Shown in pieces: positions 37,861-50,073 of a stretch of DNA of 64,000 nt. The stretch's first letter is position 1. Every line of letters begins with the position of its first letter. Below the pieces are notes generated by a model. The model did not search any database. It was given only the letters and a program-made list of their open reading frames with translations, and had not been told where the DNA came from. The DNA comes from an uncultured Phycisphaerae bacterium (GTDB taxonomy: Bacteria > Planctomycetota > Phycisphaerae > Sedimentisphaerales > Anaerohalosphaeraceae). A program made the translations under genes and the position numbers. The stretch is taken from positions 62,001 through 126,000 of the forward strand of contig CALEDR010000003.1 of NCBI GenBank assembly GCA_937949545.1. The letters are read 5' to 3'.

Positions 37861-38182
37861 CTGGAGGAGGAGGAAAAGATATTGTTTCGCGGAGACCGCT
37901 GCTCCGCGTCTGATTTCGTGTCGGGCTTAGACCACCGTTCGTTGGCATGCAAGCCCGACATTTGGAGGAGGAGGAAAGATATTGTTTCGCGAGGCCTTGG
38001 GCTCCGCGGCTGTTTTTGTGTCGGGCTTAAACCACCGTTCGTTGGCATGCAAGCCCGACATTTGGAGGAGGAGGAAAGATATTGTTTCGCGAGGCCTTGG
38101 GCCCCGCGGCTGTTTTTGTGTCGGGCTTAGACCACCGTTCGTTGGCATGCAAGCCCGACATTGGAGGAGGAGGAAAGATATT
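37861..38182. repeat. Tandem 100-bp repeat array, three full units and a partial one
   Basis: Units begin at 37861, 37961, 38061 and 38161 with an exact 100-base period. Each has GGAGGAGGAGG plus AAAGATATTGT, a GC-rich middle that varies in the first unit, and ends in a 42-base hairpin TGTCGGGCTT ... AAGCCCGACA (first copy 37919-37928 with 37951-37960). Units 2 and 3 differ at two of 100 bases by eye; unit 1 diverges in its middle. 100 is not a multiple of 3, so successive units lie in all three frames and it is not protein-coding. It is flanked by terminators and lies between two minus-strand genes. Function unknown. Confidence 0.9.
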
Positions 38183-45116: not shown

Positions 45117-45677
45117 ATGAGAAACGCCGCATCGAATCTTTTGACCCCCTCACAGAGCTGTCTGGTCCTGGTGGATGTTCAGGAAAAGCTGGCGGCCGTG
45201 ATGAGCCGTCGGGAAGAGCTGATTGCACGATGTGCGGTGCTTTTGCGGACAGCGCGGGCTTTGCAGATGCCGGTGTTATGGTGTGAGCAGGCGCCGCGAG
45301 CGCTTGGACCGACGGTCCGGGAATTGCGGGAGCTGCTGGACGGGCAGAAGCCCTTTGAAAAGACGGCTTTCAGCTGCTGCGGAGCGGAGGGGTTTCTGCC
45401 GCGGCTGGAGGCGAGCGGCCGTCGAGCGGCTGTTCTATGCGGGATTGAAGCGCATGTGTGCGTGTTTCAAACCGCTGTGGATTTGCTCAATCGGGGGTTC
45501 GATGTTCATGTGATTGCCGATGCGGTTTCTTCCAGAACTGAGGAAAACAAAGCCGTCGGGCTCGGGCGGATGTCGGCGGCCGGAGCGGTTGTCAGCTCGA
45601 CGGAGATGCTGCTCTTTGAACTGCTGCGGGATGCACGGCATGAGCAGTTTAAGGAACTGGCAGCGATGATCAAATAA
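45117..45677 (+). CDS. Isochorismatase-family hydrolase
   Basis: This 186-residue cysteine hydrolase is of the isochorismatase/nicotinamidase fold. The catalytic triad is D20 (LVLVDVQEKL), K82 (FEKTAF) and C115 (GIEAHVCVFQTA). The closest relatives are YcaC-like hydrolases without a defined substrate. The nicotinamidase zinc-binding set is not obvious, so deamidation of nicotinamide is not claimed. It lies four bases downstream of the anti-sigma gene. Confidence 0.85.
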   Translation: MRNAASNLLTPSQSCLVLVDVQEKLAAVMSRREELIARCAVLLRTARALQMPVLWCEQAPRALGPTVRELRELLDGQKPFEKTAFSCCGAEGFLPRLEASGRRAAVLCGIEAHVCVFQTAVDLLNRGFDVHVIADAVSSRTEENKAVGLGRMSAAGAVVSSTEMLLFELLRDARHEQFKELAAMIK

Positions 45678-45699: not shown

Positions 45700-45732
45700 C
45701 GCAAAGCGGCACTCCCCCTTTCCAGGGGGAGT
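45700..45732. terminator. Hairpins between convergent genes
   Basis: CCGC-AAA-GCGG followed by ACTCCCCC/GGGGGAGT (45711-45718 with 45725-45732) are two small GC hairpins between the hydrolase and GH130. No T run follows, so if they terminate it is weakly. Confidence 0.45.
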
Positions 45733-45810
45733 ACCGGAATTGTTTCAGCAGGACATCATTCTTCCGGCAGATGCTGCACAGAAGAGGCAGGCGTTTTTAA
45801 AACGCTCGGT

Positions 45811-46620
45811 TTATTGGTTTGCGGGGCAGGACAGCAGGTAATCGAGCAGCTTGTTGAGTTTGCAGGTGGCCAATCCGACATATTTGTCTGCGGCTCCGTA
45901 ATAGACAAACAGGGTATCGTTGATAACAACTTTTCCGCAGGGGAAGACAACCCCGCCGCCGTCATAGCATCCCTGCGTTTCATACCATTCCTCGGGCTGG
46001 AGAATCCAGTCTTTGGTACGATGGGTAGCCCTGGCCGGATTGTTCAGGTCCAAAAGCATTGCTCCGAGGCGGTAGTACCGATCCGGGCCGACAGCGTGGT
46101 AAAGGGTCAGCCAGCCATGCGGGGTGCGGATGGGCGGGGTATTGCCGCCGATTTTGCATTCCCAATCTTCCTTTGCGGCGGCCAGCAGGGTGCTTTGGGG
46201 CCAGTGGAGCAGGTCTTCCGAAAAGGATATCCAGATGGCTGGGTGTTCAGTCCCATATTCCGGTCCGACCCAATTCATTGGCCGATGAAGCATTACGAAT
46301 TTTCCGTTCACCTTTTCGGGAAAGAGAATGACATCGCGGTCATCAACCAGCGGGTTGGTGATGCGTCCGGCCCGAATCCATGTTTTGAAGTCGTTGGTCA
46401 GGGCCAGGCCGGTCACGGTGGCGTTTTCCCGAATCAGATAGGGAAACTCCGGCGGGCTCTGTTTCCAGACCTGGGGTTTTCCGGCGGCCAGCCAGTATCG
46501 GCCCGGAGGATAAAAACGGGCGGCGTAGGTGATGTAGTAGTACTCGCCGATTTTGATGATGCGGGGGTCTTCGACACAGCCGGCGTCAAATCCGTCGGCA
46601 CTGGGGCGAAAGACCCCATG
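45811..46620 (-). pseudogene. GH130 glycoside phosphorylase/hydrolase lacking its N-terminus
   Basis: On the minus strand the reading frame carries a clear GH130 core: GCVEDPRIIKIGEYYYITYAA, HPAIWISFSEDLLHW, CKIGGNTPPIRTPHGWLTLYHAV, YRLGAMLLDLNNP, and YYGAADKYVGLATCKLNKLLDYLL. GH130 enzymes phosphorolyse or hydrolyse beta-mannosides. About 270 residues fit, but a full-length enzyme is over 300 and begins with another conserved block, missing here. The fit stops near GVFRPSADGF at about 46620; beyond it the frame is antisense to another gene and has no GH130 signature. The gene is cut at a junction with a second truncated glycosidase, either a rearrangement or an assembly join. Confidence 0.75.
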
Positions 46621-48084
46621 GGACAAAAACCCATTTTTGTGACGGAGTATATGACCGGAAACCGCATTTTCCACGGAGTGGAGTATCCTTCGCCCGGCTC
46701 CGCTTACACCTATTCGGCTTCGGATACGGTTCCGTTTGCCGTTCGGGTCTTTGAAAATACGCTCTCGCTGCTGAACGGCGGGGCGTCGGTTCCGTTTGTC
46801 TGGGAGGCGGCCGACCAGAGCTGGTCGAATACGAGCTGGGGTCTTCAGCGCCGGGCGGCGGACGGAAGCGTCAGGCGGCCTGTTTATTATGCCTTGAAGA
46901 TTTTGACGGATTTGGTACCGCCCGGGGCTCAGGTTTTGTCGGCAGGTCCGCAGGAGCAGGGGATTTACTGTGCGGCCTTCCGCTATGACAAGGGGATTGT
47001 TTTGGCGGCGGTGAACAGCACGGAAAGCACGCAAAGCCGGATTGTACGCCTGAACGGCTCCCAGCCCAAAGAATGGGGTTGTGCACTGAGTTATTCCGCC
47101 GGAGGAATCGGCGACGGGAGCCGGTATTTGCAGTTGACGGAGCCGAATGTGCTCGAACTGACTCTGCCGTCTGATACAGCTCTTACAGCGGCATTTGAAT
47201 TTTCGTCGAATCGGCCGCAAAAGGTGCTGGAATGGAAATTTGAGGGCAATCTGACGGATACCAGCGGCTGGGGGAATGATGCGACAACAGTGCAGGGAGG
47301 ATTTCGGTTCGGTAAAGGGCGAATCGGTCAGGCCCTGTCGCTGGATGGGACGGAGGTTTTGATTGAGTTGGTCAACGGAACCAATCTGCCGCTGAATGCC
47401 GAGGACGACTGGTCAATGAATCTGTGGGTTCGTCCGAATGCGGCCATTTCTGTTGGCGGCGATTATCATGCACTGGCCTTGGCGGCTTTTGGGACAAACA
47501 GCTGGTCCAAGAACGGCAATGCCCGAAGCATCGGCAACTGGGGCTGGGGGAAGGGAATCAGTTTTTACAGCACGACGATGGTGCCGACGTATGCGAATGT
47601 TCCCTATGATGCGGGTGTCTGGCAGATGATTACAATTACCTATGAACATGCTCTCTGGCGGCAGCAGGGCACGGATACGACGGGCCAGGCCCTGAAGATT
47701 TACAAGAATGGAAGTCTCATTGCTTCGTTTAATCCGCAGGGGCGATATTACACGGGGGGATTTCGCACAGCGGATAACCGTGTTTCAATTCTGCCGGCAA
47801 TTCCGGACCAGGCGCCGAGGCGGTTTGCGGGAAAACTGGATGAGTTTACTGTCTGGAGGGGAGTCTTGTCGCCGGCGCAGATTCTAAGAATGGCGGTTCG
47901 GCAGATGCCGGCGGCGGATTTGTCCGGCAATGGGGAAGTAAACCTGAATGATTTGGAAGTTCTGTGTACATATTGGCTTGAGGAGGGTTCTGACTATGCG
48001 GCAGACTTGAATGACGACGGTTTTGTCAATTGGGAAGATTTTCGTGTGTGGAGTGTGTGGAGAAATAATCCTGAACTTTTTTAA
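46618..48084 (+). CDS. C-terminal part of a LamG/dockerin-tailed glycosidase (5' end missing)
   Basis: The usable frame begins near ATG 46618 and encodes 488 residues. The first stretch, KPIFVTEYMTGNRIFHG then NGGASVPFVWEAADQSW, resembles the last strands of a TIM-barrel glycosidase, with a possible catalytic Glu in VTEY, and a beta domain follows. Residues about 200-420 are a LamG/concanavalin-like domain (VLEWKFEGNLTDTSGWGNDATTV ... FAGKLDEFTVWRGVLSPAQI). The tail holds two dockerin-like repeats, ADLSGNGEVNLNDLEVL and ADLNDDGFVNWEDF. The catalytic barrel's N-terminal half and any signal peptide are absent, so this is a fragment. The frame happens to stay open into the antisense of GH130. 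Confidence 0.75.
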   Translation: MGQKPIFVTEYMTGNRIFHGVEYPSPGSAYTYSASDTVPFAVRVFENTLSLLNGGASVPFVWEAADQSWSNTSWGLQRRAADGSVRRPVYYALKILTDLVPPGAQVLSAGPQEQGIYCAAFRYDKGIVLAAVNSTESTQSRIVRLNGSQPKEWGCALSYSAGGIGDGSRYLQLTEPNVLELTLPSDTALTAAFEFSSNRPQKVLEWKFEGNLTDTSGWGNDATTVQGGFRFGKGRIGQALSLDGTEVLIELVNGTNLPLNAEDDWSMNLWVRPNAAISVGGDYHALALAAFGTNSWSKNGNARSIGNWGWGKGISFYSTTMVPTYANVPYDAGVWQMITITYEHALWRQQGTDTTGQALKIYKNGSLIASFNPQGRYYTGGFRTADNRVSILPAIPDQAPRRFAGKLDEFTVWRGVLSPAQILRMAVRQMPAADLSGNGEVNLNDLEVLCTYWLEEGSDYAADLNDDGFVNWEDFRVWSVWRNNPELF

Positions 48085-48105
48085 CCTTTTTTGGAGGAAA
48101 GAAAG

Positions 48106-48780
48106 ATGAAGAAGTGTTTGGCAATTTTGATGATTTTGGGCTGTATCGGTCTTGTTCAGGCGACGTTTGTCACGGTTGTGGATGATTTTGAAGGATATGC
48201 CGACAGTGCGGCTTTGCGGGCAGCCTGGGTGGTCAATCCGAATTCAAACATAACCAGCGAAACACTTGAATCGGTGCTGAACGGCAAGTGTATGCTGATT
48301 CAGAACAATCAGAACTCGCCCTATTACGCTCAGACCAAGTATGCTTTGCCGGGGGCTGTGTGGCAGGTTCATGGGGTCAATCTGACCTATCCGGGATATT
48401 ACATGATTAAGATGACTTTTGCGGTTCCCAAAAACGATGGGGTTCCACCGTGGGGTACACTGGGCGGTTCCGGCGGCGATGTATTCCTGAGTATGTTTGA
48501 CTGCTGGGGACAGAAAGTGTTCGGTGCCAGCTATCCCGGTGATGTGACCCCCAGCGGCACAGGGTGGCCGAATGGGATAGTCTGGGAAATGGATTTTGCC
48601 ACCTATACGGTTCCGGGGATGAATCTGGAGAACGTGATGTATATCACGGTTGGATATGATAAGACCTACTATGGCACCGGAGCCCTTTTTGTGGATGACA
48701 TTATTCTGGTTGGGGTTCCGGAACCGGCATCGATGATTCTGCTGTCGCTGGGAGGACGGCTGATGCTGCGCCGCCGGTAA
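48106..48780 (+). CDS. PEP-CTERM sorting-domain protein
   Basis: This 224-residue exported protein has a signal peptide (MKKCLAILMILGCIGLVQA) and a beta-rich body beginning DDFEGYADSAALRAAW, of the kind seen as a carbohydrate-binding-like jelly roll. It ends VPEPASMILLSLGG followed by LMLRRR, a PEP-CTERM tail for exosortase processing. GGAGG lies nine bases before ATG 48106. Confidence 0.85.
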   Translation: MKKCLAILMILGCIGLVQATFVTVVDDFEGYADSAALRAAWVVNPNSNITSETLESVLNGKCMLIQNNQNSPYYAQTKYALPGAVWQVHGVNLTYPGYYMIKMTFAVPKNDGVPPWGTLGGSGGDVFLSMFDCWGQKVFGASYPGDVTPSGTGWPNGIVWEMDFATYTVPGMNLENVMYITVGYDKTYYGTGALFVDDIILVGVPEPASMILLSLGGRLMLRRR

Positions 48781-48912: not shown

Positions 48913-50073
48913 TCAATCGGTCATTGTGGCTTCGCTTTTCATCGCATCGTGGAAGCTTTTGAGGTCATTGGCCCATTTCTGGGCTTCAGGCAGTGTGATG
49001 ACGCCCTGTTTGACCAGGATAGCCAGGTGGCTTTCGAACGTGATCATCTTTTCCTCGGTGGTGTCTTTGGTTTTGACCTGCATCTGAGAATAGATCTGTT
49101 CGATTTTGTTTTTTCGGATGAGATTGGCAACGGCGTAATTGTTATTCAGAATTTCCATGACGGCCGCACGGCCCTTTCCGTCTTTGCGGGGAATGAGTTT
49201 CTGGCTGATGATGTAGCGCAGGCCCAGGGACAGCTGGTTGCGGACCTCTTCTTGGCGGCCCTCCGGGAAAAAGTCGAGAATGCGGGTAACGGTGCCGACG
49301 ACGTCCCGGGTGTGAAGGGTGGAAAAGACCAGGTGGCCGGTTTCCGCTGCGGTGAGCGTAAGAGCGACGGTTTCGGCGTCACGCATCTCGCCGACGAAGA
49401 TGATGTCCGGGTCTTCCCGCATCATCGAGCGGAGACCGTGAGCAAAGGTATCAACATCCCGGCCGACCTCCCGCTGAGAAATCATTGAGTTTTTCTGACT
49501 GAAGACATATTCGATAGGGTCTTCCAGTGTGATGATTCGGCAGGCGCGGTCCTCGTTGATGCGTTCAATCAGGGAGGCGATGGTGGTGCTTTTGCCAGCC
49601 CCTGTAATGCCGGTAAAGAGGACCAGGCCCTGGGTCTTTCGAACAATGTCCTTCCAGACGTTGTTGGGAAAACCGATATGCTCGGGTTTAGGAATTTCGG
49701 TTCCGAGAGCCCGAATGGCAATGGCCATACCGTCGTTGTCCATGAAGGCATTCAGCCGAAACTGGAGCGTACCGTAGCGGTAGGAACAGTCCACGGCCAA
49801 ATCCCGCTGAAGGGCTTCGATATTTTTCGGGCCGAGCAGGGGAAAGGCCAGCTGCTCTACAATTTCCTGAGTGACGATACCGCCTTTAAGCCGCACGAGA
49901 TCCCCGTCAATCCGATAGCAGGGCTGGGTGCCGACTTTGATGTGGAGGTCGGAGACTCGCATTGCGCCCATTTTTTCAAAATAGGCAAGCATGTCATTGA
50001 TGCTTAAAAAAGCGCCCTCGCCGGCTGGATAGACTTTGGCATCGGGGGAGTATGATTGATTATTTGTCTTCAT
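48913..50073 (-). CDS. pilT: PilT-type retraction ATPase
   Basis: This 386-residue type IV pilus/type II secretion ATPase is of PilT kind. Walker A is GITGAGKSTT, followed by the Asp box (RIITLEDPIEYVF), Walker B DPDIIFVGEMRD and the His box GHLVFSTLHT. The N-terminal PAS-like domain (MRVSDLHIKVGTQP) is intact. It has the C-terminal retraction region of PilT/PilU but lacks the GspE/PilB zinc-binding insertion. No pilus operon is alongside; a pseudopilin is at 57650. Confidence 0.92.
   Translation of the reverse strand: MKTNNQSYSPDAKVYPAGEGAFLSINDMLAYFEKMGAMRVSDLHIKVGTQPCYRIDGDLVRLKGGIVTQEIVEQLAFPLLGPKNIEALQRDLAVDCSYRYGTLQFRLNAFMDNDGMAIAIRALGTEIPKPEHIGFPNNVWKDIVRKTQGLVLFTGITGAGKSTTIASLIERINEDRACRIITLEDPIEYVFSQKNSMISQREVGRDVDTFAHGLRSMMREDPDIIFVGEMRDAETVALTLTAAETGHLVFSTLHTRDVVGTVTRILDFFPEGRQEEVRNQLSLGLRYIISQKLIPRKDGKGRAAVMEILNNNYAVANLIRKNKIEQIYSQMQVKTKDTTEEKMITFESHLAILVKQGVITLPEAQKWANDLKSFHDAMKSEATMTD

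Follow-up and report, generated by a model that had tools for sequence, protein, structure and literature searches.

Two genes annotated as glycosidases, a GH130 gene on the minus strand and a LamG/dockerin protein gene on the plus strand, stand head to head in a planctomycete genome and both lack their beginnings. Was DNA lost between them, were they wrongly joined in assembly, or are they naturally short? The window, i.e., the whole 64,000-nucleotide stretch that was analysed, is C3:62001-126000 of the genome G000 (2.84 Mb, 52 contigs, 99.7%-complete), which in the named collection stands closest to planctomycete assemblies that carry the labels Planctomycetota or Phycisphaerales/Phycisphaerae. 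Both truncations meet at a single point, as the first-pass annotation had claimed; the place given there (46615-46625) has to be moved slightly to the left, to 46604-46607. The orthologues in the sister genome G003 (341 and 758 aa) are longer at their starts and bear out the truncation of both genes. By alignment with them, the GH130 gene lost its start codon and the first 77 residues and kept residues 78-341, and the plus-strand gene is without its first 266 residues including the signal-peptide region. The features are collected in Table 1.

Table 1. Features at the junction and content of the stretch missing from the window (missing genes left to right as in G003).
Feature	Position	Strand	Remark
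Left flank: isochorismatase-family gene	45117-45677	+	adjoins right flank at the empty site, G003 C41
Residue of ~15.3-kb cluster	45706-48776		cluster whole in G003 (L042:2094-17429) and G004
GH130 remnant (beta-mannoside phosphorylase-like)	45811-46607	-	C-terminal 264 of 341 residues; PF04041 E 6.8e-44, orthologue alignment
Deletion junction (very probable), GGGC common to both breakpoints	46604-46607		12,316 bp (vs G003), 12,383 bp (vs G004) missing here
Multidomain protein remnant, LamG-like and dockerin-like ends	46604-48084	+	residues 267-758 of 758 kept; orthologue L042:14461-16737
PEP-CTERM protein gene, intact, final gene of cluster	48103-48780	+	TIGR02595 above cut-off; Pfam match below cut-off
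Right flank: PilT-like ATPase (by eye)	48913-50073	-	adjoins left flank in G003 C41
Missing: first 77 residues of GH130	leftmost of missing stretch	GH130 strand	
Missing: GH5-like protein, 982 aa	next		weak GH5 (Cellulase) match E 5e-4, below cut-off
Missing: sodium:solute symporter, 658 aa	then		
Missing: beta-lactamase-family protein (hydrolase), 602 aa	then		
Missing: LacI regulator, 357 aa		other strand	
Missing: LamG protein, 727 aa		as LacI regulator	
Missing: pilin-like protein, 261 aa		as LacI regulator	
Missing: first 266 residues of 758-aa protein	rightmost	as LacI regulator	

The window GH130 copy scores 150.5 bits against PF04041 (cut-off 26) and the intact G003 copy 177.2 bits; with 77 of 341 residues gone at the N-terminus it is a remnant and not a complete family member. 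Its best solved relatives are 9fj8 (1,2-beta-oligomannan phosphorylase) and 7fip (beta-1,2-mannobiose phosphorylase), which it resembles as a GH130 beta-1,2-mannoside phosphorylase would, whereas the loss of its first 77 residues sets it apart from them. Even the intact G003 protein is far under the NCBIfam equivalog cut-offs, and therefore no substrate was assigned to the window gene. Just past the GH130 stop a strong hairpin is found at 45708-45736; G003 shares it in this position, G004 has a variant, and it is probably an operon terminator. A dispersed repeat was also considered for this hairpin and rejected, as allowing up to 2 mismatches it matches once in G000, once in G003 and not at all in G004 and G001.

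In the plus-strand remnant Laminin_G_3 (E 6.9e-9) and Dockerin_1 (E 4.1e-4, under its cut-off) were matched. The first 280 residues of the intact gene gave no Pfam match even at E 10 and no solved relative other than dockerins. By eye, we read an NEP motif in the lost part (N168-P170) and VTEYM in the kept part (from 278), which we take as a likeness to clan GH-A enzymes; the protein may thus carry a GH-A-like barrel, judged by eye only. The PEP-CTERM gene behind it now stands without the upstream part of the cluster, and homology to G003 stops at 48776. The ATPase of the right flank looks PilT-like by eye.

Each remnant protein was searched separately in 59 genomes. In three of the five other genomes of the genus (G003 C5, G004 C8 and G001 C30) the two genes share a contig and the divergent arrangement, with 10.8-12.4 kb between the matched parts. 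The single-contig genome G037, from the same taxonomic order, has this arrangement too, with about 10.3 kb between; G002 and G005 show only the GH130 side, on short contigs. Intact divergent versions, proposed earlier as a check, are present in G003, G004 and G001. In the alignments to G003 and G004, and to G001 at 72-79% identity, both flanks are collinear with the intact locus and one internal stretch is missing. Base-level registers place the window 12,316 bp short of G003 and 12,383 bp short of G004, against which no other large indel is found across the 64 kb. On the left the match runs to the end of GGGGC at 46603-46607, and on the right it sets in with GGGC at 46604, so that 4 bp (GGGC) are common; around them the breakpoints resemble each other imperfectly. 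The suggestion of a single deletion across a divergent promoter agrees with this conserved order and orientation and with the 12.3-12.4 kb missing; the loss is larger than had been implied, comprising six whole genes plus both 5' ends.

Both frames are open through the junction (469 aa on the minus strand, 756 aa on the plus strand), as they would be if the short genes were ancestral and functional and the sisters carried an insertion or extra N-termini. We regard this as barely conceivable. Among the GH130 relatives kept from named genomes, the frame stays open for 55 codons or more upstream of the junction residue in 78 of 80, across phyla; the exceptions are L132, with a late match start and a short frame, and L134 at a contig edge. 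Only the open-codon count was used here, since a score of the upstream residues against the G003 N-terminus was equalled by shuffles and discarded. In addition, no single insertion could have made two unrelated genes whole in one step, and the plus-strand remnant is without the signal-peptide region of its orthologue. Homologues starting at the same short position, named in the first-pass annotation as the finding that would speak against truncation, were looked for and not found.

The mis-join considered there, in which a chimeric read or the assembler linked separate points within a single intact locus, with the intervening 12.3 kb lost or unbinned, is less likely than a deletion and in our view unlikely in itself. 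What the join leaves out is exactly one collinear stretch of a single locus. The missing DNA was searched in two pieces against all contigs and is absent elsewhere in this 99.7%-complete genome, including the missing 5' ends, for which a search of other contigs had been proposed; besides the junction ends the query gave 13 short matches in G000, 12 of them in the start of the pilin-like gene. Assemblers usually require far longer shared sequence than the 4 bp common to the two sides. On the other side, the assembly is in 52 contigs and the remnants are without decay, and the join may yet be chimeric or come from a minority strain. The shortness of the junction homology also counts for an artefact. 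At least 4 shared bases arise by chance in 0.016 (formula) or 0.019 (sampled) of random joins. Passages of a study of Salmonella (PMC3411829), on true deletions versus chimeric reads, put the microhomology level deduced for the true deletions at 8 bp or more, and by those passages 4 bp lie in the range where homology alone cannot rule out chimeric reads. In favour of a real deletion, the junction lies well inside the 130-kb contig, with over 20 kb to each side.

Two small inverted repeats at the junction, GGGG-cgaaaga-CCCC and ATGGG-acaaaaa-CCCAT, had been put forward as a recombination focus. Both exist, and one fits a terminator-like pattern. That they drove the deletion is nonetheless highly improbable. 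GGGG-CGAAAGA-CCCC occurs at neither breakpoint in G003 or G004 and was therefore created by the join, and ATGGG-N7-CCCAT is native coding sequence in the intact G003 gene (L042:15271) and is absent in G004. Such shapes are also common and not notable in the window, where repeats with a 7-bp loop number 55 for GC-only 4-bp arms and 114 for 5-bp arms, the junction pair counted.

A real, recent and ordinary deletion of about 12.3 kb is very probably what explains both truncated genes. It would have fused the interior of the GH130 gene to the interior of the divergent LamG/dockerin gene and taken their common promoter region, the 5' end of each and the six genes between. End joining or replication slippage at the short homology may have produced it. 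Ku-dependent end joining was rejected, as Ku (PF02735) was found in none of four genomes of the genus, with a control match in one of 14 genomes, Bacillus subtilis. Microhomology-type (illegitimate) deletions of bacteria are similar in the collinear loss, the few shared junction bases and the absence of a visible mobile element there; 12.3 kb with only 4 shared bases differs from them, and the mechanism is proposed only. Because their own promoters and starts are lost, the remnants are best read as pseudogenes. Their frames are still open with dN/dS of 0.07-0.10 versus G003 and G004, and 28 nonsynonymous and 74 synonymous changes are unique to the G000 side against 29 and 106 for the two sisters (Fisher p 0.36), and therefore no decay is seen yet. 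This fits a recent deletion and equally an artefact. Relaxed selection was also tried as a clock for the deletion and dropped, since neither dN/dS nor the unique changes gave a sign of it. With such a deletion, the glycan that the cluster serves, whichever it is, would no longer have been used.

As an event the deletion is of an ordinary kind, and more is to be learned from the moved cluster. The whole ~15-kb cluster occupies the window site in G000 and G004. In G003 it lies elsewhere (C5:23095-38429), about 100 bp after tRNA-Leu, and C41:58545-58712 is the empty window site, where 166 bp separate the isochorismatase-family gene from the right-flank gene. The window flanks are collinear with G003 C41 (75-88% identity by block) and with G004 C8 (88-91%). 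The second, G003-type site is empty in G001 (C36:157571-157745), which has its own cluster on C30. The cluster therefore sits at no fewer than two different sites, probably three, and with sites occupied in some genomes and empty in others, as for an island, it has changed place within the genus or has been acquired and lost there. No integrase or transposase was found among the cluster genes by Pfam family search, no direct repeats of at least 9 bp at the G003 cluster edges (the longest at the window edges is 8 bp), and no useful direct repeats or tRNA at the cluster edges in the window.

Versus G003, dS of the remaining cluster genes is 0.24-0.43, compared with 0.80-2.53 for the nine nearest background frames (rank test p 0.005). 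The contrast shrinks when all 46 background frames serve as the reference (p 0.03; 16 of the 46 have values as low as those of the cluster), and therefore a transfer of the cluster between species is likely, not demonstrated, on these synonymous divergences. An old duplication with differing losses is the alternative. Identity alone was rejected as proof of transfer, as background dS between G000 and G003 ranges from 0.14 to 2.53. Across window 1-54500 synonymous divergence is patchy between genes versus G003 and more even versus G004; interspecies recombination or differing codon constraint may underlie this. Separately, about 120 bp at 37963-38083 are aligned twice, in overlapping blocks, to G003 and likewise to G004, which looks like a short duplication that differs among the species.

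Glycan-utilisation gene clusters are gained and lost as islands. The present cluster is like them in that its divergent operons combine a regulator and a transporter with phosphorylase and hydrolase-like genes, and in its differing sites in sisters; it is unlike them in that the searches named above showed no integrase, transposase or direct repeats. That it is a horizontally exchanged island which shifts place without an integrase of its own, with the deletion as one step of decay in the window lineage, is a reading that we neither favour nor disfavour. A limited literature search found nothing on this locus, and we do not claim its absence from print.

One event thus accounts for two odd truncated genes, and caution is advised against annotating such remnants as working enzymes. 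The different site of the cluster in sister genomes shows, on a small scale and clearly, how a glycan-degradation locus is gained and lost among uncultured planctomycetes. If the exchanged island is real, a handful of sister genomes would record how one glycan-use cluster was gained, transferred and lost.
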